A DNA stretch of 36,593 nt from a virus, in IMG/VR virus record IMGVR_UViG_3300043466_002608, positions 1 through 36,593 of that record; one strand, written 5' to 3'. Both the position numbers and the translations under genes were made by a program. How positions within the stretch are numbered: position 1 is the stretch's first letter; each line of letters begins with the position of its first letter. The notes below the pieces were generated by a model that saw only the letters and a list, made by a program, of their open reading frames with translations, was not told where the DNA came from and made no database searches. This document shows, in pieces, positions 10,217-31,635 of this stretch.

Positions 10217-10248
10217 GCCAGTCTAGAAATAGGCTGGCTTTTCTTTTT
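10217..10248 (+). terminator. Rho-independent terminator after holin
   Basis: 8-bp stem (10217-10224 with 10231-10238, one G-U pair), 6-nt loop, then TTTTCTTTTT. It separates the plus-strand block from the convergent glycosyltransferase operon; the other strand lacks a good U-run. Confidence 0.9.
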
Positions 10249-11284
10249 ATTCGTTAATTATATTTAAATATTTTTGTTTTAAATTATCAACAGAAAAATT
10301 TTCTATACCTATTTCATAAGCTCTATTTTTTATATTACTTTTGTTATTATCAAGAACATATTTATCAATTGTTTTAGCTAATATTCTAGGGTAAGCATCA
10401 TAAACATTAACAATAGACTTACCTCTAAATTTATCTATCATCGCCGACTCTGATAGCCACTCTGCTGGTAAAATTGCATTATTTGGAGAAATGTTTGTCA
10501 TAAAAACTGGAATACCACTCATAAGAGCCTCATTCATTGGTAAACAAAGTCCAGCATACCTTCGTGGAAGAACCATGGCATCAAAGCCTTTATACATGTC
10601 TTGCCTATTTTTTGGATTACCTATCTCAATTTTTAATCTAGGATCTTTGGTAGCATAGTCAATATTAGTCTGAGACTTAATAACTATTTCATAATCTCCT
10701 TTATAGTATCTCATCATTTCAAAAATACTGTTAGTGCCATTTCTATCCTTTGCTGCTTTTTTACCAGCTATATGTAGTATTCTTTTGTGATCTTTTGATA
10801 GGTTTATTTCTTTTGCCTCAGAAAATAATGAACTATCTGTTGGTGGTGGCAAGTGAATTACCTTTGATCTTGTACCAAATTTTTTAATAATTACATCTAG
10901 ATTCCATGTACTTGGTGCAATAAGCACATCTGGCAATGTCCATTCTGGGTGAGCTAAGTGTCCAAATAGTTCATAGTTGTATTGAAGTATAGTCTTAATT
11001 CCTTTTTGTTTAGCAAGATCAACTAACTCTAAATGATAAAATGTTTCACAACTTATAACTACATCTAAATCATCAAGAAATGTCAATACTTCTGTTGTAT
11101 CTGGCATACCATTTGCGGTTTCAAGAACATTGTATCCTTTATACCACTCTGGATGCTGTTCATTATTATTAAAAGGGGTAGAATTTATTAAAAGTATCTT
11201 ATGAGGATTAAGCATCTTAACAAGTTCCATTGTTTGATTACCTAGGCCAGTGTTATCTGATCTAGCAATAATGCCTAGTCTCAC
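10247..11284 (-). CDS. Glycosyltransferase group 1 (GT4-like)
   Basis: 345 residues. N-terminal Rossmann-like half begins MRLGIIARSDNTGLGNQT; the C-terminal half has HLPPPTDSSLF, RILHIAGKKAAKDRNGT and a donor-binding stretch (AMVLPRRYAGLCLPMNEAL) like the EX7E region of GT-B enzymes. It would transfer a sugar from an activated donor. GTG start with GGGGG upstream, overlapping the stop of the preceding gene. Last gene of a six-gene operon. Confidence 0.7.
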   Translation of the reverse strand: MRLGIIARSDNTGLGNQTMELVKMLNPHKILLINSTPFNNNEQHPEWYKGYNVLETANGMPDTTEVLTFLDDLDVVISCETFYHLELVDLAKQKGIKTILQYNYELFGHLAHPEWTLPDVLIAPSTWNLDVIIKKFGTRSKVIHLPPPTDSSLFSEAKEINLSKDHKRILHIAGKKAAKDRNGTNSIFEMMRYYKGDYEIVIKSQTNIDYATKDPRLKIEIGNPKNRQDMYKGFDAMVLPRRYAGLCLPMNEALMSGIPVFMTNISPNNAILPAEWLSESAMIDKFRGKSIVNVYDAYPRILAKTIDKYVLDNNKSNIKNRAYEIGIENFSVDNLKQKYLNIINE

Positions 11285-12042
11285 TTTTTATACCCCCAGA
11301 TATCATCATCCGATGTAAATTTCCTGGTTCCTTCACGACCATCAAGATGGTAAGAACGCTTTATGTTTCCTTCTGGATGGTATATCCAAAGCTTATGAAC
11401 ATCCCAGCCTTCTTGACTAAAGGAGTCGTAAGGCAAACAATCGTCTTGGACTTTGCCATGAAATCTATCTTCAATAAAAGTTTTTTCATGAGAAAAAGGT
11501 AGGATAATATTTCTATAATATGAAACTCTGCTAAGGTGTGGTCTCTGGCTCCATTGAGCTGTTTTCATAAATCCATCCTCAAGACCAAACATTAAATGTT
11601 TATGGGGTTCAGGAATCAATGCTTCAAAGTGAAAGCGTATTGTGTTTGCTTTTTCATATTCAATAAGATCAAGACACTTTTGCCAATCAATAGGTTCATC
11701 TGGTGTAAGGGGTGTGTCTCCTTCAACGTATAGCAATAATGATGTTTGGATTTCATCGATAGTCTCACGCATCATTGTGGTTTGATGGCTATGGTTATCA
11801 AAAATTATTGGTAATACATTTTTATATTCATGCAAACATTTCCAAAGAATCCTATTTTTATATTCGTTATAGTCATCCCTGCGATCAGATTGTTCTTGTC
11901 TCAATCCATCTATCTGCATAATAATTTCATTACTTGGAAAGTGAACTCTAAGACATTTAATTGTTTCATCAATAATATCTGTACTAGGATGACTTGGCAA
12001 AACTGAGGTAGCTAATATAATTGTTACATCATTTTTATTCAT
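11281..12042 (-). CDS. Glycosyltransferase family 2-like protein
   Basis: 253 residues. N-terminal DVTIILATSVLPSHPSTDIIDETIKC resembles a GT2 opening, and LLLYVEGDTPLT sits where the metal-binding DxD-type motif (here EGD) is expected. WDVHKLWIYHPEG is near the C-terminus. The acceptor is unknown. Translationally linked with the previous gene (its ATG overlaps that stop). Confidence 0.6.
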   Translation of the reverse strand: MNKNDVTIILATSVLPSHPSTDIIDETIKCLRVHFPSNEIIMQIDGLRQEQSDRRDDYNEYKNRILWKCLHEYKNVLPIIFDNHSHQTTMMRETIDEIQTSLLLYVEGDTPLTPDEPIDWQKCLDLIEYEKANTIRFHFEALIPEPHKHLMFGLEDGFMKTAQWSQRPHLSRVSYYRNIILPFSHEKTFIEDRFHGKVQDDCLPYDSFSQEGWDVHKLWIYHPEGNIKRSYHLDGREGTRKFTSDDDIWGYKK

Positions 12043-12907
12043 TTACTTGCCTCATAATATTTATTCCCAGATCTCTTTTGTATTTAAGCCACCAAGTAAC
12101 TACTTTGTGCATATTTTTTGGGTATTGATTTAATAGTTCAGGAACTAATTTACGCAACTCAGACCAATTAGAAACATGCTCAACAGGTATATCATATCCA
12201 AAAAGATAGTTATAAAAATCTAAACTATTACCCTTTGGGTCTATCCTATCAGCAATAGGTAGGCACAACATTTCTATAGCTTCAAAAAATCTAAATGAGT
12301 CTATGACTACAGCCCCAGAAGGCGCAGGAGCGATCTTAGAACTGGCTAGGGTGCGGTAGTAGTCTACAGGCTTATCTCCCTGTGCAAAGCCTGCTGTGGG
12401 CTTAAAAAGGGCATTTGGCATGTTCTGTATAGCCTTAGCCAACTGCTGTCGTCTTGGATGAGTTATTTGACCACCAAAATATAAATCATTATCCTTAGAA
12501 GGATATTCAGGCACAAGGTTTTTTAAATGTTGTGGAACACCAATAGGCAATTTATTGTATTCTTTGTGCTGTTCGTGAGGGTATTGAATCCATATCTCAG
12601 CGTTAGGATGACTAATCTTACTTATGTCAAACTTGCCTTCTTCATCCCCCGTAATAAATAAAACAAGTCTAGACATATTTTGTATTTGTGTATTAACATC
12701 TTCCTCATGACCAATATTTTGAGGTCCAGGAACTACCACAAAACCACGATCTGCTTTGGGAATAGAAGTTACCTTAACTTGATCTACTTCATACTTATCA
12801 AATATTTCTTTCAAAAGTCCATAGTCCCACTTATCAGCAGCACAATCTTTTTCATTAAAAGAATATAAATAACATTTAGATTGGTTCATAATAAAGATGA
12901 ACCTCAT
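12035..12907 (-). CDS. Exostosin-like (GT47-type) glycosyltransferase
   Basis: 290 residues. ASSKIAPAPSGAVVIDSFRF followed by FEAIEMLCLPI resembles the exostosin GT47 region (SKFCLxPxG-D-S-R-F-EAlxxGCIPV). DLYFGGQITHPRRQQL is a likely nucleotide-sugar-side segment. Two starts are possible: ATG 12907 (overlapping the FkbM gene by 32 nt) and ATG 12889; neither has a strong ribosome site. Confidence 0.6.
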   Translation of the reverse strand: MRFIFIMNQSKCYLYSFNEKDCAADKWDYGLLKEIFDKYEVDQVKVTSIPKADRGFVVVPGPQNIGHEEDVNTQIQNMSRLVLFITGDEEGKFDISKISHPNAEIWIQYPHEQHKEYNKLPIGVPQHLKNLVPEYPSKDNDLYFGGQITHPRRQQLAKAIQNMPNALFKPTAGFAQGDKPVDYYRTLASSKIAPAPSGAVVIDSFRFFEAIEMLCLPIADRIDPKGNSLDFYNYLFGYDIPVEHVSNWSELRKLVPELLNQYPKNMHKVVTWWLKYKRDLGINIMRQVNE

Positions 12908-13589
12908 GCTGGTAGTCTATTAAGTGTTCGACATACCCAATACCCTTGATAAACTGTCTAAGATCGTAGAGATATTCTTTCCAGTACATCATCATAAACT
13001 CTGGATGACCAGATAGCCAAATCTTTGGCTTAAATTCTCTCATAACCTTTTCTGCACCACCAAGTACACGCCATTCACTACCCTCAACATCGAGAGATAT
13101 TGCTGTAGGAGGCTTTAATCCTTTTTCATATACCAAGGTATCAATCTTTGTCTGTCCATATTTATCTGCTTCATACTGAAGTTCTTTAAATCCATGTGCA
13201 GCTTCGATTAGTGCATCAGCTTCTGGAGGCCATGCATCATAATAAATACGTGCAAGTTCATTGTCTACATCAGATGCAAACCCAGGAATAGACGCAAGAG
13301 GCATTTCTAAATCATTGGCACTCCAAAGCAAAGGAAAATGTGACCAAACCTTTGGATTAGGTTCAAACAAAACTACTTCTGCTCCCCACATCTGACATAA
13401 GGCAGGCATCTCTCCTTCTTCAGCACCAACATAATAAACTACATCACCTTTACCAATGTTCTCATGCATTGACTTAAGTCTTGGTTTTTCCCAACCGTGT
13501 GGCTGATACCAATCTGGTCTGTCTGCACGATGCTTTGGTAATGTTATTTCAAATTCCCCGTTAATAACGGCTTTAACCATCTCTGTCAT
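12876..13589 (-). CDS. FkbM-family methyltransferase
   Basis: 237 residues. GDVVYYVGAEEGEMPALC (about 49-66) is the SAM-binding glycine region, VVLFEPNPKVW the acidic turn, and AISLDVEGSEWRVLGGAE the diagnostic FkbM segment. FkbM enzymes methylate hydroxyls on sugars or related molecules, fitting the surrounding glycosyltransferases. AAGGGG ribosome site; ATGA overlap with the preceding gene. Confidence 0.85.
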   Translation of the reverse strand: MTEMVKAVINGEFEITLPKHRADRPDWYQPHGWEKPRLKSMHENIGKGDVVYYVGAEEGEMPALCQMWGAEVVLFEPNPKVWSHFPLLWSANDLEMPLASIPGFASDVDNELARIYYDAWPPEADALIEAAHGFKELQYEADKYGQTKIDTLVYEKGLKPPTAISLDVEGSEWRVLGGAEKVMREFKPKIWLSGHPEFMMMYWKEYLYDLRQFIKGIGYVEHLIDYQHEVHLYYEPI

Positions 13590-14452
13590 TTTATTCCCCT
13601 TAGTCTGTTATGCTCTATAAGTACTGGATTACATGCCCCACATGTAGTTATTTCTATTTTATTATCAACATTACCCTCAGCGTATGTTGATTTATATTTA
13701 AAAGAATTACCACATGTTGTGCAAGTAATTAATGTTTCTTTAAAGTTTAGATCATTTTTTATTGATTCTTTTTCTATCCATTCATTGTAATAATCATTAG
13801 AAAAATATGTTATATCATTTTCTGGATCATTAAATGGATGTTCATATGTATTTAGAAGGTGCTCTCCAGTTCCAGGAGGTCTGCCCCACTTTTTTTCATA
13901 GTAAACTCTATGATGAGGATCATCTGTTTTTATTTTATTTAACTTCATACTATGTGACATTATTGTATCTTTTACATCAACCAACTCTTTTGTCCAAAGA
14001 AGCATTTTTTCAGAGTTAACAGCAAATCTTTCATCATCTGAAAATGCAAATGGAAATGCTTTTTGAATTCTTACACTAAAGTCAAGATCGTCATATCCAT
14101 ATGGAGTGAAGTTAGTATCCCATTTACCAACTTTATCTATAACATCTTTATGAAAAGCAATTAGGTGCCAACCAAAAACACCCATTCCTTCTACAATTTT
14201 ATGTTGGGTATTTTTTAATTTTTCTATAAAATCTAAACCGCCAGCCTCACCAAAACGGATAGCTGGGCTAATAACTACAAGCCAGTCAGATTCAGTTTCA
14301 TACATCTTATCAACACCAAGGTTGTGGCTTGCCATACAGCCGATATTATTTGTAGTGTTATCAATCTTTAAAACATTTTCAAGTTTACATGTTGCCATAA
14401 ATTCATCCATTACAGATTGTACTGTATAAGGAACAACAGCTACATACTTCAC
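13586..14452 (-). CDS. Glycosyltransferase (GT2/GT-A-like) with C-terminal zinc ribbon
   Basis: 288 residues. DWLVVISPAIRFGEAGGLDFI, GVFGWHLIAFHKDVIDKVGKWD and TPYGYDDLDFSVRIQKAF fit a GT-A fold with the ED-like acceptor helix. An unusual C-terminal tail has paired cysteines (CTTCGNSF and TTCGACNP) forming a probable zinc ribbon. GTG start behind AGGA, overlapping the previous TGA (GTGA). Confidence 0.65.
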   Translation of the reverse strand: MKYVAVVPYTVQSVMDEFMATCKLENVLKIDNTTNNIGCMASHNLGVDKMYETESDWLVVISPAIRFGEAGGLDFIEKLKNTQHKIVEGMGVFGWHLIAFHKDVIDKVGKWDTNFTPYGYDDLDFSVRIQKAFPFAFSDDERFAVNSEKMLLWTKELVDVKDTIMSHSMKLNKIKTDDPHHRVYYEKKWGRPPGTGEHLLNTYEHPFNDPENDITYFSNDYYNEWIEKESIKNDLNFKETLITCTTCGNSFKYKSTYAEGNVDNKIEITTCGACNPVLIEHNRLRGIK

Positions 14453-15408
14453 TTTATTCCTAACTCATCCATAATAGTTGCCCATCTGTGTACATAAGTA
14501 TGGTCTTGCTTTGTTCTTTCATGACCATTTAATCTAATACGTTCTCTATTGAGGTTGTCATCAATATATTTATCTATCTTAATCTTTAGATCTTCAAGAT
14601 TGCCATGCTCATAGAAAACAATCTCATTTCCATCTTCAAAGTAATTCTCAAGCCCTTTAATACCAGGGTAGATAGTAAATCCACCACGACCAGTACTCTC
14701 AAATAATCTATCGCTAGTGTAGTAAGGATAGTTAAAGTTAATGTTAAGACTATCTCCTACAGCAACCTTGCTCTGTGCGTATATCTGGTTTAGCTGATCT
14801 CCACGGACAGTTCCAGTATCACCATCTCCACCTACATGTAGGAAGCGTTTCCCATATGTTTGTCTTAAGAAGTCTATAAGTTGTGGTCTGTATTTATGTT
14901 CAGGGTGATAGCCTTTGCTACCAACAAAAATAACATCATACTTAAACTCATACGGATTATAGTCTTTGTGTATATAACATTCTTTATCATATACTCCTGC
15001 GGGTAAAAAGTGTCCTTTTACTTCTGTATTTTCATTAAACCAATCACACATTAACTTATCTGTAGCAAAAAAATGACCTATGCTAGTATAGAAGTCATCA
15101 TCTTTTAAATCCTTTTCCCGTTCAATACCAAACCATAAATCTAAATGATAAGTCATAGTGGGTATGCCAGCATCCTTTAATTCTTTTAATACATCTGTCA
15201 TTGTTCTAGAACCTGGAGTTTGCCATCTATGTGTGTGTACCCAGATGAATAGATCAGACTTTAGCGCCTTCATTAATATTTCTGAACTACCTGCTTTTTT
15301 CTCCTGCAATTTTTCAACGGTATGTCCAAGAGATTCAAGACTCTTAGCATGATGATTCTCACTACTATAAGGCACTTCAAAGTTACCAAGAAAAACTATT
15401 TGAGCCAA
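14449..15408 (-). CDS. CgeB-like glycosyltransferase
   Basis: 319 residues. DVIFVGSKGYHPEHKYRPQLI, RFLHVGGDGDTG and SDRLFESTGRGGFTIYPGI match the GT1_2/CgeB pattern (donor-binding C-terminal half). First gene of the operon. TTG start is chosen because GGTGGG lies 6 nt upstream. The promoter is an extended -10 in the divergent intergenic region. Confidence 0.75.
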   Translation of the reverse strand: MAQIVFLGNFEVPYSSENHHAKSLESLGHTVEKLQEKKAGSSEILMKALKSDLFIWVHTHRWQTPGSRTMTDVLKELKDAGIPTMTYHLDLWFGIEREKDLKDDDFYTSIGHFFATDKLMCDWFNENTEVKGHFLPAGVYDKECYIHKDYNPYEFKYDVIFVGSKGYHPEHKYRPQLIDFLRQTYGKRFLHVGGDGDTGTVRGDQLNQIYAQSKVAVGDSLNINFNYPYYTSDRLFESTGRGGFTIYPGIKGLENYFEDGNEIVFYEHGNLEDLKIKIDKYIDDNLNRERIRLNGHERTKQDHTYVHRWATIMDELGIK

Positions 15409-15437
15409 TTTTATCCCACCTATTCTGTGTTTAAATA

Positions 15438-15446
15438 ATTATACCA
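15438..15446 (-). promoter_or_regulatory. Promoter of the glycosyltransferase operon
   Basis: Reading the minus strand, TGGTATAAT (extended -10; hexamer 15438-15443). It is interleaved with the divergent plus-strand promoter at 15452-15460. Confidence 0.6.
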
Positions 15447-15451
15447 GACTC

Positions 15452-15460
15452 TGATATACT
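15452..15460 (+). promoter_or_regulatory. Promoter of the Stealth-like gene
   Basis: TGATATACT at 15452-15460, an extended -10, 19 nt ahead of the ATG at 15480 with AGGTAGGA between. Confidence 0.6.
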
Positions 15461-15479
15461 TAGAGTAAAGGTAGGACTT

Positions 15480-16169
15480 ATGGATTTTGTTTATATATGT
15501 AGATCAGGTGAGAACGAAGAGCTTAGATACTCTATTCGGTCTGTTGTTAATTCGTTTCCTGAAGCCCGTATATGGGTTGTAGGTGGGAAGCCAGACTGGT
15601 ACTTAGGAAACTACATAGAGGTAGCTCAAGACCGACACAAGTACGCCAATGCTTTTAATAACATTATTGCTATATGTGACTCAAAAGAGATATCAGAGTC
15701 TTTTGTTTTAATGAACGATGATTTTTTTATACTAAAGAGGTTTGATTTAAATGATATTTTTCATGGAGGATTGCTGTCTAATAAAATAAAAATACATAGA
15801 AAGAGCATGCCCGACTCAAGATACGGAAGAAAACTTATTGAAACACGAGACATGCTTAAATCAAATAATTTATATGATAGTTTAGATTATGAGCTTCATG
15901 TTCCTATGGTATTAGAAAAAAATAAACTTGGTATTATTGTAAAAAAATATCCTGAACTGTTATGGCGTTCTATGTATGGTAATTTATATAAACTGGGCGG
16001 TAAAGAGATAAGAGATGTCAAGGTTTATAGTGATCCAAGACGTTCTGAAAAGTCTATGATAGTAGATAAAGACTCTGTTTTTGTATCAACACAAGACGAA
16101 TCATTCGATGTTATCTATGAGTCTGTTCTTAAAGAAATGTTTTTATATCCAACCAAGCTTGAAGGATAA
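15480..16169 (+). CDS. Stealth-like sugar-phosphate transferase
   Basis: 229 residues. ELRYSIRSVVNSFPEARIWVV (14-34) and SFVLMNDDFF (74-83) match conserved region 2 of Stealth proteins (ELRYSLRS-, NDDxF), and ELHVPMVLEKNKLG resembles region 3. Stealth enzymes are hexose-1-phosphate transferases of capsules and teichoic-acid-like polymers, and occur in actinobacteria. The protein is shorter than cellular members. Divergent from the glycosyltransferase operon and tail-to-tail (1 nt apart) with the HNH gene. Confidence 0.7.
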   Translation: MDFVYICRSGENEELRYSIRSVVNSFPEARIWVVGGKPDWYLGNYIEVAQDRHKYANAFNNIIAICDSKEISESFVLMNDDFFILKRFDLNDIFHGGLLSNKIKIHRKSMPDSRYGRKLIETRDMLKSNNLYDSLDYELHVPMVLEKNKLGIIVKKYPELLWRSMYGNLYKLGGKEIRDVKVYSDPRRSEKSMIVDKDSVFVSTQDESFDVIYESVLKEMFLYPTKLEG

Positions 16170-16170
16170 G

Positions 16171-16446
16171 CTAAGCACTTTTTTTGGTTAGTCTATTGTG
16201 TGTTCTTATTCTATGACAGTTGGCACAAACCACTTCACATTTTGCAATTTCTTTCTTAATTGCTGCCCAGGAAAATCCATCATGGATCATTCTTGAAACA
16301 TTATACTTTTTATCCTTAAGGTGATCAAAGTCTAACAGTATGGGGTTATTGACTCCACAGTCTACACAGCCAGAAGACTCTTTTATTTCTGACAGCTTTC
16401 TCTTAAACTGTTGCTTGTTATAATGTATTAACTCTTTGTCAGTCAT
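16171..16446 (-). CDS. HNH endonuclease-like protein
   Basis: 91 residues. CVDCG (27-31), LLDFDHLKDKK (about 37-47) and CEVVCANCHRIRTHNR (about 70-85) give the zinc-ribbon HNH layout, with DH and NCH as the active-site part. Phage HNH proteins may be homing nucleases or packaging accessories; no intron is seen here. Near-leaderless: ATG 10 nt beyond a TATAAT. Confidence 0.75.
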   Translation of the reverse strand: MTDKELIHYNKQQFKRKLSEIKESSGCVDCGVNNPILLDFDHLKDKKYNVSRMIHDGFSWAAIKKEIAKCEVVCANCHRIRTHNRLTKKSA

Positions 16447-16455
16447 ATTGACATT

Positions 16456-16464
16456 ATTATATCA
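16456..16464 (-). promoter_or_regulatory. Extended -10 promoter for HNH gene
   Basis: Minus-strand TGATATAAT (hexamer 16456-16461); the ATG is 10 nt downstream and no ribosome site is visible. Confidence 0.55.
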
Positions 16465-16468
16465 AGGT

Positions 16469-17266
16469 TTATACAGAGGCAGGTATTTTATGTTTTGGGT
16501 TTATTGGTGAAAGATCGCCTGATATAAGTTTTTCAATCTCAGCACACACTAGTGAATACTCTTCAGCAAATACTTCTGGGGTTCTGCCTTCTCCCATAGC
16601 AGCAGGGGTCCCTTTAGCTATTAAATCTTCTTTTAGTGTCTTTTCAATATCGTAGTTTAATACTGTGCACTGGAACCAATTTGCTACATACCCATCTTTA
16701 TCAATAAGGTACTTTTCAAAGTTTCCACCCTGCATTGCACCATTAGAAATAGGTTGATTTAGCCAAGGTGACAAGTAACCATCTCTATCTGGAATGCCAA
16801 GTTCTTTTTGTTTTGCTGCAAAAGAAATTGTTTGATCTGATATCTCTTTATATAGTTCATGAGTTTCTTGTCTAGGCTGCCCTAAACCGTTTACAGAACT
16901 ATCCCCCTTATATTCACTAAGCTCAGTAGCACTTTCATTTGGGTTTGACGACACCATCTCTGAAAACTTAAAAGTGGTTCCATAAGTGTCTCTGCCATAC
17001 TCTTGTGAGTCTAGTCCACAGGTAATGCCTTGTGACCACTTACCCTTGGTAACTCCTGGTCCACAGTAATCGTTTGTTGGAATAGCAATTATTTCAAATC
17101 CTTGATCTTGATATTTTTCTTGAAGCCATTGAAGAACTTCCATCTGATTAGCATTGCCACAACCGACAGTGGTATTTACTAGCATTGTTACCTTACCCTT
17201 GAATTGTTCAAGGAAGTTAGGGGTTTCTTCAGCAGAATTTAGAGGAATACTATAAATTGATTTCAT
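16469..17266 (-). CDS. Glutathione-peroxidase-like protein
   Basis: 265 residues. FKGKVTMLVNTTVGCGNANQ (22-41) places Cys36 at the peroxidatic position; FEIIAIPTNDYCG (57-69) matches the GPx strand that normally reads GFPCNQF; GGNFEKYLIDKDG (180-192) carries the catalytic Asn. About 75 residues longer than typical GPx, with an insertion (about 95-175). Likely a thiol peroxidase that could use the phage or host thioredoxin; that pairing is inference. ATG coincides with the predicted transcription start. Confidence 0.75.
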   Translation of the reverse strand: MKSIYSIPLNSAEETPNFLEQFKGKVTMLVNTTVGCGNANQMEVLQWLQEKYQDQGFEIIAIPTNDYCGPGVTKGKWSQGITCGLDSQEYGRDTYGTTFKFSEMVSSNPNESATELSEYKGDSSVNGLGQPRQETHELYKEISDQTISFAAKQKELGIPDRDGYLSPWLNQPISNGAMQGGNFEKYLIDKDGYVANWFQCTVLNYDIEKTLKEDLIAKGTPAAMGEGRTPEVFAEEYSLVCAEIEKLISGDLSPINPKHKIPASV

Positions 17267-17272
17267 ACCATG

Positions 17273-17281
17273 ATTATATCA
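17273..17281 (-). promoter_or_regulatory. Promoter for leaderless gpx transcript
   Basis: Minus-strand TGATATAAT (hexamer 17273-17278). The ATG at 17266 is exactly 7 nt downstream and has no ribosome site. Confidence 0.65.
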
Positions 17282-17298
17282 CAATTTACATGAAAATG

Positions 17299-17377
17299 CC
17301 CTACACAGGTATTCCAGGCACAATAGCCACGGTCAAACGAATGGGTAACTAATCCATCTCTAAGGTCCTGTGTAGGG
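17299..17377. repeat. Long inverted repeat enclosing structured region
   Basis: CCCTACACAGG (17299-17309) is the exact reverse complement of CCTGTGTAGGG (17367-17377). The 57 nt between them contain two smaller potential hairpins (GGC/GCC near 17318-17329; ATGG/CCAT near 17341-17357). On the plus strand it is followed by TTTTTATATT (terminator-like); on the minus strand it follows a TATAAT at 17387-17392. An 18-codon frame (17296-17352, plus) lies inside. It could be a small RNA, a terminator or an attenuator between hsp20 and gpx. Confidence 0.6.
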
Positions 17378-17392
17378 ACTTTTTATATTATA

Positions 17393-17806
17393 CTACTTGA
17401 TTTTGATTGCTTTAGGCTTCTTTTCTTCAGGAACAATGCGATCTACATTAATATGCAGCATACCGTCCTTTATCTCAGCCCCAGTTACCTCCATATATTC
17501 ACCAAGAGCAAATGAGCGTGTAAACTTGCGACTTGCGATACCCTTGTGAATTACTTCAGCATCAATTACATCAATAATCTCACCCTTAATAATCAGAGTT
17601 CTATTATCTACAGATACATCAATATCTTCTTTAGTAAAACCTGCAATAGCAAGCGAAATCCTATATGTATCTTCATCTAGTTTAAAAAGATCATATGGAG
17701 GATAAGATTGATTGTTTGTCTTATATACATTGTTTAACTGTGTTAGGTTTTTATTAAACCCAATAAAAAAAGGGTCATTAAAAATGGCCCATGGATCGTT
17801 CATCAT
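17393..17806 (-). CDS. Hsp20 small heat-shock protein
   Basis: 137 residues with an alpha-crystallin domain: YPPYDLFKLDEDTYRISLAIAGF (about 35-57), KEDIDVSVDNRTLIIKG (59-75), FTRSFALGEYMEV and GMLHINVDRIVPEEKKPKAIKIK. The C-terminal AIKIK is the I-x-I/V-like oligomerisation motif. It should act as an ATP-independent holdase. Similar genes occur in T4-like cyanophages. Start ATG 17806 follows AAGGGG. Its leader looks like an RNA thermometer. Confidence 0.9.
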   Translation of the reverse strand: MMNDPWAIFNDPFFIGFNKNLTQLNNVYKTNNQSYPPYDLFKLDEDTYRISLAIAGFTKEDIDVSVDNRTLIIKGEIIDVIDAEVIHKGIASRKFTRSFALGEYMEVTGAEIKDGMLHINVDRIVPEEKKPKAIKIK

Positions 17807-17811
17807 ATTAT

Positions 17812-17827
17812 TCCCCTTTCAAGCGAA
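17812..17827 (-). promoter_or_regulatory. Possible ROSE-like RNA thermometer in hsp20 leader
   Basis: The minus-strand leader reads TTCGCTT-GAA-AGGGGAA: UUCGCUU can pair with the ribosome site AGGGGAA with a G-G opposition and a 3-nt loop. UCGCU matches the U(U/C)GCU anti-ribosome-site motif of ROSE elements. A second hairpin with a TTCG loop (GTAC stem, about 17831-17849) lies upstream. Confidence 0.5.
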
Positions 17828-17861
17828 TAAGTTAGTGTACCCCCGAAGGCAGTACATTACT

Positions 17862-17870
17862 ATTATATCA
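17862..17870 (-). promoter_or_regulatory. Promoter of hsp20
   Basis: Minus-strand TGATATAAT (hexamer 17862-17867), giving a leader of about 50 nt. Confidence 0.65.
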
Positions 17871-17872
17871 TG

Positions 17873-17945
17873 TGCCTCCAGTTGGGCTTGAACCAACGAC
17901 CCGCAGATTAAAAGTCTGCTGCTCTACCAACTGAGCTATAGAAGC
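17873..17945 (-). tRNA. tRNA-Lys (anticodon UUU)
   Basis: Full cloverleaf: acceptor GCTTCTA/TGGAGGC, anticodon loop CTTTTAA, T-loop TTCAAGC. 3' CCA is not encoded. First of a five-tRNA cluster by coordinate. Confidence 0.95.
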
Positions 17946-17950
17946 CTTTG

Positions 17951-18037
17951 CGGAAATAATAGGATTCGAACCTATGGTAGATTTTATTCTACGGTCAGTT
18001 AGCAACCGACTGCTTTAAACCACTCAGCCATATTTCC
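17951..18037 (-). tRNA. tRNA-Ser (anticodon GCU)
   Basis: Cloverleaf with a long variable arm; acceptor GGAAATA/TATTTCC, anticodon loop TTGCTAA, T-loop TTCGAAT. No encoded CCA. Confidence 0.95.
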
Positions 18038-18038
18038 T

Positions 18039-18112
18039 TGGAGCGAATAGCGAGAATCGAACTCGCACATTAACCTTGGCAAGGTTACGCACTACCACTA
18101 TGCAATATCCGC
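18039..18112 (-). tRNA. tRNA-Gly (anticodon GCC), CCA encoded
   Basis: Acceptor GCGGATA/TATTCGC, anticodon loop TTGCCAA, then discriminator T and an encoded CCA (18039-18041). Confidence 0.93.
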
Positions 18113-18116
18113 ATCG

Positions 18117-18188
18117 TACCCTCAGAGGGATTCGAACCCCCGACACACAGGGTAGAAACCTGTTGCTCTTCCTCTGAGCTATGAAGGT
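18117..18188 (-). tRNA. tRNA-Arg (anticodon UCU)
   Basis: Acceptor ACCTTCA/TGAGGGT, anticodon loop TTTCTAC, T-loop TTCGAAT. Reads AGA codons, which are frequent in these AT-rich genes. No encoded CCA. Confidence 0.95.
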
Positions 18189-18189
18189 C

Positions 18190-18265
18190 TGGCTGCCCCA
18201 CCTGGTCTCGATCCAGGGACACCCGAATTAACAGTTCGGTGCTCTACCAACTGAGCTATGGGGCA
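18190..18265 (-). tRNA. tRNA-Asn (anticodon GUU), CCA encoded
   Basis: Acceptor TGCCCCA/TGGGGCA, anticodon loop CTGTTAA, discriminator G followed by encoded CCA. The T-loop starts ATCGA instead of TTCGA, slightly unusual. Confidence 0.93.
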
Positions 18266-18304
18266 ATACTTAATATAAAATAACCACACTATCTACTATA
18301 TATT

Positions 18305-18316
18305 GTAGCATGCTAC
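18305..18316. repeat. 12-bp perfect palindrome
   Basis: GTAGCATGCTAC overlaps the stop codon of the carbamoyltransferase gene, between it and the tRNA cluster. May be an operator or processing hairpin; no U-run follows. Confidence 0.5.
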
Positions 18317-19737
18317 CTAAGTATAGTAAAATTGTATTCTTTTTCCCAATTTACAATATCGATTTCATCATTTAATAATGGCTGTCCTTTAATGTTCAGA
18401 CTTGTATTTAGTAGTAATGGAACACCTGTTTGTAAATAAAATTTATTTATAGCTCGATATAGTCCAGGATGCTGATCCATACTAACTGTTTGAACCCTAG
18501 ATGTTCCGTCTGCGTGTACAACAGAAGGTATTTTTTCTGGCTTTAAACATTTAACAGTATATTGCATATAAGGACTTTCAAAGTTCATATCAAACCATTT
18601 ACTGGCATGGCTTGCAAGTACAACTGGAGCAAAAGGTCTGAACAGTTCTCTTTGTTTAATTAAATTAACTTTGTCTTTAATTGATGGGTCTCTTGGATCT
18701 GCAAGAATGCTTCTATTTCCCAAGGCTCTTGGGCCATACTCTGCCCTACCTGTTGCAACTGCAACTATTCCATCTTTCAATATGCCATCAACAATTTTTT
18801 GAACGGGATAGGTTCCTTCAAGATCATAACCAAGGTAAGGTGTATTCCATTCAATATGTTTACCATATAGAGCAGCTGCAGCACCTAAAGAACTTCCAGC
18901 ATCTCCAGGGTTTGGCATTATCCATATGTCATCAAATATTTTCCAAAGCAAGGTGTTTGCCGATGAGTTAAGTGCACAACCACCCATAAATACTAAGTTA
19001 TTTTTACCAGTAAGTGATTTAGCCATACGCATAAAATCATTAAGTCGTTGTTCATAAACCACTTGAACTGCAGCAGCAATATCAAATTTGTCTTGCTCTG
19101 ATTTAATCCATCCCCAATCATGAATACCCTTATGAAAATTATATTTTTGATGATTGTGTGATGGGAAATATGAATCTACTTTTTTATAATGTTTTGTCCA
19201 GTCACCGTAAGCTGCCATCCCCATCATAATATATTCTTCTTGGTTGGGCATAAGTCCAATTAACTGTGTGAAAGCAGAATAAAATAATCCAAAGCTAACA
19301 GGATAGTTTTGTTTATACTTTAGCTCTATTCTTTCTCCTTCGCCAACCCATATCGTTGAAGTATTATATTCACCAATCGCATCAAGAACAACGATTACAG
19401 CATCACTAAATGTACTAGTATAATATCCAGCTGCTGCGTGAGAGTAGTGATGACTAAAAGATTTAGTAGGAACTCCTGGCAAATCAAAACGTGGCTTCCA
19501 ATCTCCTGCACCACCCTTTAAGAATAGTCTAGAGGCTTTAAGAAGAGGTTTTTCGTAGTAGGCTATATGATCTGGTATACCATATGATAAAGCATCTTCA
19601 ACTAAACCATCATTAACATACCAATCGTTCTTTTGTTTACTGTATCTTTCCGCATGACCTGCAAAAAGTATCTCGCCATTTTTAATTAAAGATACTGATG
19701 CATCATGAGAAGTTTCATTAATTCCAATAATTATCAT
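18313..19737 (-). CDS. NodU/CmcH-family carbamoyltransferase
   Basis: 474 residues. GINETSHDASV (5-15), FSHHYSHAAAG (94-104, metal and catalytic His97/His100), VVLDAIGE (116-123), GGCALNS (252-258), and the C-terminal segment RAEYGPRALGNRS (331-343) with RELFRPFAP (363-371) are the carbamoyltransferase family motifs. The enzyme carbamoylates a hydroxyl, usually on a sugar, via carbamoyl-adenylate. Shorter than typical cellular members (550-600). No ribosome site; AT-rich leader. Neighbouring SGNH-like and glycosyltransferase genes suggest a glycan substrate. Confidence 0.9.
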   Translation of the reverse strand: MIIIGINETSHDASVSLIKNGEILFAGHAERYSKQKNDWYVNDGLVEDALSYGIPDHIAYYEKPLLKASRLFLKGGAGDWKPRFDLPGVPTKSFSHHYSHAAAGYYTSTFSDAVIVVLDAIGEYNTSTIWVGEGERIELKYKQNYPVSFGLFYSAFTQLIGLMPNQEEYIMMGMAAYGDWTKHYKKVDSYFPSHNHQKYNFHKGIHDWGWIKSEQDKFDIAAAVQVVYEQRLNDFMRMAKSLTGKNNLVFMGGCALNSSANTLLWKIFDDIWIMPNPGDAGSSLGAAAALYGKHIEWNTPYLGYDLEGTYPVQKIVDGILKDGIVAVATGRAEYGPRALGNRSILADPRDPSIKDKVNLIKQRELFRPFAPVVLASHASKWFDMNFESPYMQYTVKCLKPEKIPSVVHADGTSRVQTVSMDQHPGLYRAINKFYLQTGVPLLLNTSLNIKGQPLLNDEIDIVNWEKEYNFTILR

Positions 19738-22763: not shown

Positions 22764-22869
22764 TTTCTTCCCCATCCATTTCTTTATCCCAAATAATCAA
22801 ACATTTTGTACACTGTATTCCTGGCTCTCTCATATACCACTTATGGCTACATTTTATACTGTCGCCCAT
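22756..22869 (-). CDS. Tiny zinc-finger-like protein
   Basis: 37 residues: IKCSHKWY and IQCTKCLIIW supply Cys, His and a CxxC pair. The ATG lies inside the end of the HNH gene (16-nt overlap) and lacks a strong ribosome site, so the start is uncertain. Confidence 0.5.
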   Translation of the reverse strand: MGDSIKCSHKWYMREPGIQCTKCLIIWDKEMDGEEND

Positions 22870-23300
22870 TTGATAATGTTACACCTTCCGTGAGCAGGTC
22901 TTACGTTCTCTAAAATGTCAAGTCCACCTTTAGACAAGGGATACACATGATCGATATGCAATCCCTTTTCCCAACCTGGTTTGCCACATTGTCTTGGGGC
23001 ATCCATATCTATCGGGGTATTGCAAATATGACAATCTAATCCATAAGTCTCTAATACCATCTGATCAGAGTAGTTACCTGGCTCTGTATTATTTCTACGA
23101 AAATGTCTACGGGCATTAGGAGTGCGAAAACGCCACTCTCTTCGTAATCTATTTATCTGTTCCTTACGGATAACTCTTTGGTTTCTCCAATAGATTCGCT
23201 CTGCATCTGTACAAGGTTGGCAAGGCTCTTCTTTCATATCTCGTCTATGCCAATCATAGCCTGATCGTGTTCCGTGCTCAGGTTCTTGTTTATGCCTCAT
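22854..23300 (-). CDS. HNH endonuclease
   Basis: 148 residues. The C-terminal half has the zinc knuckle CHICNTPID, GLHIDHVYPLSKGG with the catalytic DH, and ENVRPAHGRCNIIKW, the complete HNH layout. The N-terminal half has HGTRSGYDWHRR and PCQPCTDAERIYWRNQR, an extra Cys pair, then a long basic helix likely to bind DNA. ATG 23300 is preferred over TTG 23318 because it coincides with the predicted transcription start of the promoter at 23307-23335. Confidence 0.85.
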   Translation of the reverse strand: MRHKQEPEHGTRSGYDWHRRDMKEEPCQPCTDAERIYWRNQRVIRKEQINRLRREWRFRTPNARRHFRRNNTEPGNYSDQMVLETYGLDCHICNTPIDMDAPRQCGKPGWEKGLHIDHVYPLSKGGLDILENVRPAHGRCNIIKWATV

Positions 23301-23306
23301 ATAATC

Positions 23307-23335
23307 AGTATACCTCAAAAGATCGGTTTGGTCAA
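23307..23335 (-). promoter_or_regulatory. Promoter for leaderless HNH transcript
   Basis: Minus strand TTGACC (23330-23335), 17-bp spacer, TATACT (23307-23312). The -35 overlaps the stop of the luciferase-like gene; ATG 23300 is 7 nt beyond the -10. Confidence 0.7.
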
Positions 23336-31271: not shown

Positions 31272-31442
31272 TTACTCAGACTTTGCTGTCCAAGTTGTGT
31301 AGCGTGGCTTTCCGTCTACCATTAACTTCACACGCACATTACCATTTGCCTGTGGAATAATCTCCTCGATTGTTCCTGTGACCTTTGACTTCTGAGTTGT
31401 GAAAGTGTCGCCCACCTTGTATGTTGCATTTGATACTGCCAT
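31272..31442 (-). CDS. Small SH3-like beta protein, unknown
   Basis: 56 residues from ATG 31442 behind AAGGAG; the frame stays open upstream but that part is noncoding. YKVGDTFTTQKSKVTGTIEE and RVKLMVDGKPRYTTWT suggest a small beta barrel (SH3/KOW-like). Function unknown. Confidence 0.7.
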   Translation of the reverse strand: MAVSNATYKVGDTFTTQKSKVTGTIEEIIPQANGNVRVKLMVDGKPRYTTWTAKSE

Positions 31443-31474
31443 TTTGTTTCTCCTTTGTAGTTGTTGATATATTA

Positions 31475-31504
31475 AGTGTAGCATTTTGCTCTGACATTTT
31501 GCAA
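31475..31504 (-). promoter_or_regulatory. WTGTCA-class promoter
   Basis: Minus strand: TTGCAA (31499-31504), ATGTCA (31492-31497), 11 nt, TACACT (31475-31480). Confidence 0.65.
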
Positions 31505-31544
31505 ATCTAAACTGCAAAAATCTCATATTTTGAGACATTTTTTG

Positions 31545-31560
31545 TGTGATATAGGTCACT
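31545..31560. promoter_or_regulatory. CRP/GlxR-like palindrome
   Basis: TGTGATATAGGTCACT, centred about 84.5 bp upstream of the predicted start of the 31475 promoter; GACATTTT 3 bp away. Overlaps the stop of the 23-residue membrane gene. Confidence 0.5.
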
Positions 31561-31627
31561 CGTGCCCCATACCCGCTAGTAGGACTATTAGGAATATCGT
31601 TATGAGTCCTAGTATTATTAGAGTCAT
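31556..31627 (-). CDS. 23-residue membrane microprotein
   Basis: MTLIILGLITIFLIVLLAGM plus HE: one uninterrupted hydrophobic helix. GGGGG sits 4 nt before the ATG, and it directly follows the GP88-like gene. Too short to classify; the hydrophobicity and ribosome site argue it is real. Confidence 0.5.
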   Translation of the reverse strand: MTLIILGLITIFLIVLLAGMGHE

Positions 31628-31635
31628 GATTCCCC

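Follow-up and report, generated by a model that had tools for sequence, protein, structure and literature searches.

A predicted ROSE-like two-hairpin leader preceding an IbpA-type hsp20 gene in a bacteriophage genome

The window analyzed here is the whole 36,593-nucleotide stretch of viral DNA in IMG/VR record IMGVR_UViG_3300043466_002608. On its minus strand, positions 17393..17806 encode an IbpA-type small heat-shock protein of 137 amino acids, whose AUG was read from the sequence at 17806. The protein matched Pfam HSP20 (PF00011, 4.2e-17) and PHROG 432 Hsp20 (1.3e-36), as expected from its identification as Hsp20 in an earlier note made from the sequence alone. Directly upstream of the leader, ARAGORN placed a tRNA-Lys gene (17872..17945, minus strand), the last of five clustered tRNA genes on this strand (17872-18265), from which transcription may read through into the leader. 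The 5' to 3' order on the minus strand is tRNA-Lys, an extended −10 promoter read directly from the sequence (TGATATAAT, 17862..17870), hairpin 1 (GUACUGCCUUCGGGGGUAC, 17837..17855, from the predicted fold and comparison), a short linker, the Shine-Dalgarno (SD)-sequestering hairpin 2 (17808..17830, from the predicted fold and pattern matches), and the AUG. Within hairpin 2 are UUCGCUU (17827-17821), a GAA loop (17820-17818), and AGGGGAA (17817-17811). The anti-SD strand carries the ROSE motif U(U/C)GCU, here UCGCU (17822..17826), and the SD sequence AGGGG (17813..17817) lies 6 nt 5' of the AUG; in relatives the SD is GGAGG or AGGAG rather than AGGGG. All of the leader elements named in the earlier note were present on the minus strand, with the positions and letters given there. 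The hsp20 gene and the five tRNA genes lie in an auxiliary-gene region (10247-19737) that also contains glycosyltransferases, a Stealth-like protein, a glutathione-peroxidase-like protein, and a Nol-like carbamoyltransferase.

The earlier note had proposed that UUCGCUU pairs with AGGGGAA across a G-G opposition. Folding predicted this pairing within a longer stem: hairpin 2, UUAUUC-G-CUU(GAA)AGGGGAAUAA, which can also be written UUAUUC-G-CUU(GAA)AGG-G-GAAUAA, has nine pairs with a single G opposite G, and the SD is buried in it. Its outer extension UUAUUC/GAAUAA (17830-17825 with 17813-17808) adds three A-U pairs to the core noted earlier, and the G of the ROSE motif (17824) is predicted to be mismatched or bulged. 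The preceding hairpin with a UUCG loop was found at 17855-17837 as GUAC-U-[G]-CC-UUCG-GG-G-GUAC, with a bulged G; the drawn minimum free energy structure closes the loop slightly differently. The 63-nt leader folded with −15.2 kcal/mol (z = −2.54), and 2 of 200 shuffled sequences were equally stable. The 23-nt hairpin occurred once in the window when up to three mismatches were allowed (0 expected). At 37° the energy of hairpin 2 was −5.9 kcal/mol, versus −4.6 for E. coli ibpA and −5.1 for ibpB.

Equilibrium folding from 5° to 50° gave an unpaired SD fraction of 0.28 to 0.31, with no melting. Because the curve for E. coli ibpA, a proven thermometer, was equally flat, the folding curves were not used as evidence. 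A structure predicted to be stable over the full temperature range would also fit hairpins that act as a fixed brake on translation or as an mRNA-stability element, giving a constant level of Hsp20 and sensing nothing, and stabilization of mRNA by a 5' hairpin has been discussed for Pseudomonas (PMC3669281). This explanation seems unlikely to us, however, since it does not account for a strict U(U/C)GCU with a bulged G that is found at hsp20 and is rare elsewhere.

The sequence TGNTATAAT was present in 177 of 180 distinct related leaders, at a median position 57 nt 5' of the start codon and 5 nt 5' of hairpin 1; an extended −10 occurred in the same range at 71 of 493 control genes. Sequence and comparison thus show a dedicated extended −10 of the housekeeping type before the phage leader. 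Transcription would be expected to start at about 17855, approximately the first base of hairpin 1. The concern that a downstream start might remove UUCGCUU from the transcript is thus answered in part, since the extended −10 in those 177 leaders places the predicted 5' end of the RNA at the base of hairpin 1.

A protein-guided search of viral contigs identified at least 80 close relatives. Every leader present had the same promoter and both hairpins, and hairpin 2 was almost letter-identical. A scan of IMG/VR with a hairpin 2 pattern gave at least 199 matches in the loci fetched. For 194 of these a reading frame could be read, and all 194 begin an Hsp20 (39 to 100% identity) 1–3 nt downstream; the remaining five lay near a contig or locus end, and most showed the same gene start. 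A pattern that was too short, used in a scan of genome contigs, gave scattered chance matches only. Because the hairpin 2 scan was conditioned on sequence, the search was repeated with a protein alignment, which yielded, among the matches listed, 47 exact leaders, 2 truncated leaders, and 31 diverged ones. In the 31 diverged leaders U(U/C)GCU faces the SD, mostly as CUCGCU or CUUGCU opposite AGGAG; judged by its letters, this is the classical ROSE motif, including the variable Y. The motif was UCGCU in 178 and UUGCU in 2 of the 180 distinct leaders. These and the following counts are of distinct leaders among the matches listed, not of independent events.

The motif T[TC]GCT was found 5' of the start codon in all 162 actinophage-type leaders (the clade of the window) versus 16 of 436 control genes. 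A survey seeded with the HTVC115P protein gave 51 of 56 pelagiphage-type leaders versus 2 of 34 controls, and one seeded with the Syn1 protein gave 51 of 55 cyanophage-type leaders versus 4 of 36, the controls in both being drawn from the same loci. An SD hairpin with a bulged G could be formed in 284 of 286 distinct phage hsp20 leaders versus 53 of 493 control genes and 8% of shuffled sequences, and both hairpins in 258 of 286 versus 3 of 493 and 0.16%; the detector requires some pairs, so it is the control rates, and not complete pairing, that count as evidence. Hairpin 1 was found in 157 of 167 actinophage-type leaders. The two structural proposals of the earlier note, U(U/C)GCU facing the SD and a hairpin with a UUCG loop before it, are thus each supported by hundreds of related leaders. 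The same arrangement was present at hsp20 of annotated Pelagibacter, Methylophilales, Synechococcus, Sinorhizobium, and Agrobacterium phages and of the unassigned phage C48C1; it was not formed in the hsp20 leader of Vibrio phage PWH3a. In two further loci (L548, 1182-1442; L539, 1191-1241) the same ROSE-like leader was seen approximately 250 nt 5' of hsp20. In L548 a small open reading frame (~70 amino acids) lies between the leader and an hsp20 that has a separate SD, so the leader may control a two-gene operon.

For an analysis of pairing, 51 sequences were aligned to a covariance model, R1; this alignment is fitted to the structure and hence biased towards it. In it 99.5% of cells paired versus 81% in shuffled alignments, 111 cells had changes on both sides versus 28, and the covariation score was 0.513 versus 0.154, a value reached in none of 500 shuffles. 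Sliding the partners by one column reduced pairing to 59–65%. Nearly all of the compensatory change, which was strong, lay in hairpin 1; hairpin 2 was mostly invariant, and within the actinophage clade its conservation was one of sequence, with hardly any compensatory change. Mean pairwise identity was 0.88 for hairpin 2, 0.66 for the stems of hairpin 1, and 0.27 upstream. Because compensatory change falls almost entirely in hairpin 1, these alignments indicate that hairpin 1 is held by its shape and hairpin 2 by its letters. Unguided RNAalifold returned a weak consensus of four pairs only, because the types of hairpin 1 cannot be aligned on their letters and there is little variation in hairpin 2. 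Several of the exceptions to T[TC]GCT have letters swapped on both strands with the hairpin kept; three such lineages are L485 (AGACGCUUUAAGGAGGUCU), L482 (AGACGCUCAUGGAGGUCU), and L540 (AUAACGCUUAACGGAGGUUAU).

A conserved stretch of this kind might instead be a DNA site, either an operator or part of a late promoter, and not an RNA structure, as would be allowed by the almost unchanged letters of hairpin 2 within one clade. The compensatory change in hairpin 1, that between lineages in hairpin 2, and a position nearly fixed relative to the SD and start codon all argue against this, and we consider it very improbable. HAIR and CIRCE operators were sought in the window and were not found. The comparisons show a stable predicted hairpin 1 kept by compensatory change and a predicted hairpin 2 whose U(U/C)GCU is paired with the SD except for a G that is bulged or mismatched.

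The proposal that the leader is ROSE-like held for the motif, the two-hairpin architecture, and the R1 model, but not for the Rfam covariance models. None of the Rfam ROSE models (RF00435, RF01832, RF02523) matched the window leader at E values up to 10, and RF00435 and RF02523 had no match anywhere in the phage genome; the ROSE assignment therefore rests on motif and architecture. Leaders of relatives were scored by ROSE_3 (RF02523) at 34.1 bits for Melnitz (E 5e-4), 28.0 for Atu_ph07, 26.8 for C48C1, and 21.6 for Syn1, all below the gathering cut-off of 43 bits. The true ROSE element of E. coli ibpA scored 20.8 bits with ROSE_3, compared with 100 for its own model, ROSE_2, which gave no listed match on any phage leader scanned. 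R1 was trained on cyanophage-type and pelagiphage-type leaders and Melnitz, all outside the clade of the window, and was slightly weakened by misalignment of the last two rows of its training alignment in hairpin 1. Its best place in the window was the leader (17813-17855, 20.4 bits, E 2e-4), with the next place at 8.7 bits; in 15 kb of E. coli DNA it scored the ibpA leader at 15.6 bits and the ibpB leader at 16.8 bits. Two other Rfam candidates were rejected as chance or unrelated matches. Freshwater-2 RNA (RF02980) gave sub-threshold matches at a few relatives' leaders and none at that of the window, and a preQ1-II match had 15.4 bits versus a cut-off of 47. The leader lies in the 5' UTR directly before a small heat-shock gene, has, by prediction and comparison, two of the two to four hairpins typical of ROSE-like thermometers, with the SD in the 3' one, and has U(U/C)GCU opposite the SD. 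Because these defining sequence features are present and the Rfam cut-offs are not reached, the data support calling it a phage-borne, ROSE-like leader, filed in no Rfam family.

The closest proven counterparts are the ibpA thermometers of Pseudomonas, which have a two-hairpin design of similar length (PMC3669281). They share with the phage leader a length of ~50–62 nt, a stable first hairpin, a second hairpin with U(U/C)GCU opposite the SD around a bulged G, a free start codon, and a small heat-shock gene. ROSE_3 has the same two-hairpin layout, and its consensus shares GAUGCC...GGGUC in hairpin 1 and ACUcGCU...AGGAG in hairpin 2. In contrast to both, the window leader is phage-borne, with a likely actinobacterial host and an extended −10 in place of a sigma32 promoter, and its hairpin 2 has an additional A-U stem and hardly varies in sequence. 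The ibpA and ibpB elements of E. coli (ROSE_2, RF01832) have the same SD hairpin core (ibpB, CUCGCUUCUUAGAAGGAG). Phage leaders that gate an SD are known from the thermometers of lambda cIII, SPbeta blyA, and a gut-phage sigma70 gene (PMC11182007, PMC10586365); these differ in motif and gene, those of blyA and sigma70 being fourU elements and that of cIII closing on warming.

We conclude that a two-hairpin, ROSE-like leader probably controls translation of the phage IbpA-type Hsp20. Most likely, the SD hairpin would block translation as long as the cell is unstressed and would open once the temperature rises. At the usual temperature of the host the SD would be closed in hairpin 2; warming, or an infection-raised level of misfolding, would open the weak G-containing helix and allow ribosomes to make Hsp20. 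Hairpin 1 probably serves as a folding guide and protects the 5' end. With the phage copy on a housekeeping-type promoter, stress, if it is sensed at all, would have to be sensed by the RNA itself.

Warming may not be the signal, because infection need not shift temperature and may well cause misfolding. The leader could mainly be a binding site for Hsp20, with free Hsp20 binding the SD hairpin and repressing its own translation until misfolded proteins titrate it away, so that the leader would sense aggregation, whether or not it also acts as a thermometer. In E. coli, IbpA exerts such repression on its own mRNA by way of the 5' UTR and requires Arg93 to do so (PMC10474464). Arg occupies the position corresponding to IbpA residue 93, and was found there in 273 of 277 actinophage-type, 78 of 80 cyanophage-type, and 78 of 79 pelagiphage-type proteins (duplicate contigs included). 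Conservation of hairpin 2 in its letters rather than in pairing alone also fits recognition by a protein. However, this Arg may be general to IbpA-type proteins and hence not discriminating, the annotated phage C48C1 has the leader with Lys at this position, and RNA binding by the phage protein is assumed by analogy with E. coli IbpA. We regard autorepression as a serious competitor of, or partner to, the thermometer, but as less likely than not to be the leader's main role.

Three proteins of the window (DUF932, PHROG 1392, and an endolysin) had their best relatives in actinobacteriophages, and one frame (22854-23318, minus strand) combined a WhiB-like match (residues 7-52) with an HNH endonuclease match. 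The actinobacteriophage relatives and the WhiB-like match point to an actinobacterial host, and the virus is probably one of freshwater actinobacteria. At E 1e-15, IbpA-type Hsp20 was absent from 296 genomes of the phylum that includes a Coriobacteriaceae genome, a sample outside which the true host group may lie, and from 145 of 146 genomes of a cyanobacterial phylum. The sole copy in the latter phylum (L575, G445:C31, minus strand) also has a two-hairpin leader (R1, 25.8 bits), and may be of phage origin or a contamination. At the same threshold, 71 of 78 Pelagibacterales genomes had an IbpA-type Hsp20. The leaders fetched from them contain an SD hairpin of the same kind with (U/C)GCU, and most also have hairpin 1, with R1 scores of up to 40.8 bits. 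These SAR11 leaders resemble those of the phages in having both hairpins before an IbpA-type hsp20, but they are bacterial and often lie behind a sigma32-like promoter, CTTGAAA...CCCATATAA.

The simplest reading of this distribution, although not a proven one, is a cassette of hsp20 and leader carried by phages. We see an even chance that the IbpA-type gene and its ROSE-like leader have been spread by phages among actinobacterial, cyanobacterial, SAR11, Methylophilales, and rhizobial hosts, some of them seemingly lacking an IbpA-type protein of their own; a local promoter would replace the heat-shock promoter in the phages, and the RNA alone would sense heat or misfolded protein in the course of infection, possibly with feedback by Hsp20. 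ROSE elements have been described as typical of alpha- and gamma-proteobacteria, and a single ROSE-like sequence is on record for a cyanobacterium (PMC4166951). A 2024 study counted very few phage RNA thermometers and described none as ROSE (PMC11182007), and we came across no account of phage ROSE elements in the literature searched, which covered few subscription papers, so an earlier report is possible. If our reading is correct, phage hsp20 genes are commonly under ROSE-like control, which extends to phages of actinobacteria and cyanobacteria, and these leaders could readily be used to ask why heat-shock genes are carried by phages, whether to sense warming or to sense misfolding during infection.

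Elsewhere in the window, positions 31440-31536 (minus strand) gave the window's best match to freshwater-2, which was sub-threshold (31.2 bits, cut-off 49.9, E 0.0047), overlapped by a weaker match to manA-II at 31491-31628 (35.2 bits, cut-off 100). The freshwater-2 match ends at AAAGGAGAAACAAAAUG 5' of a gene, and is possibly a second structured leader in this phage.
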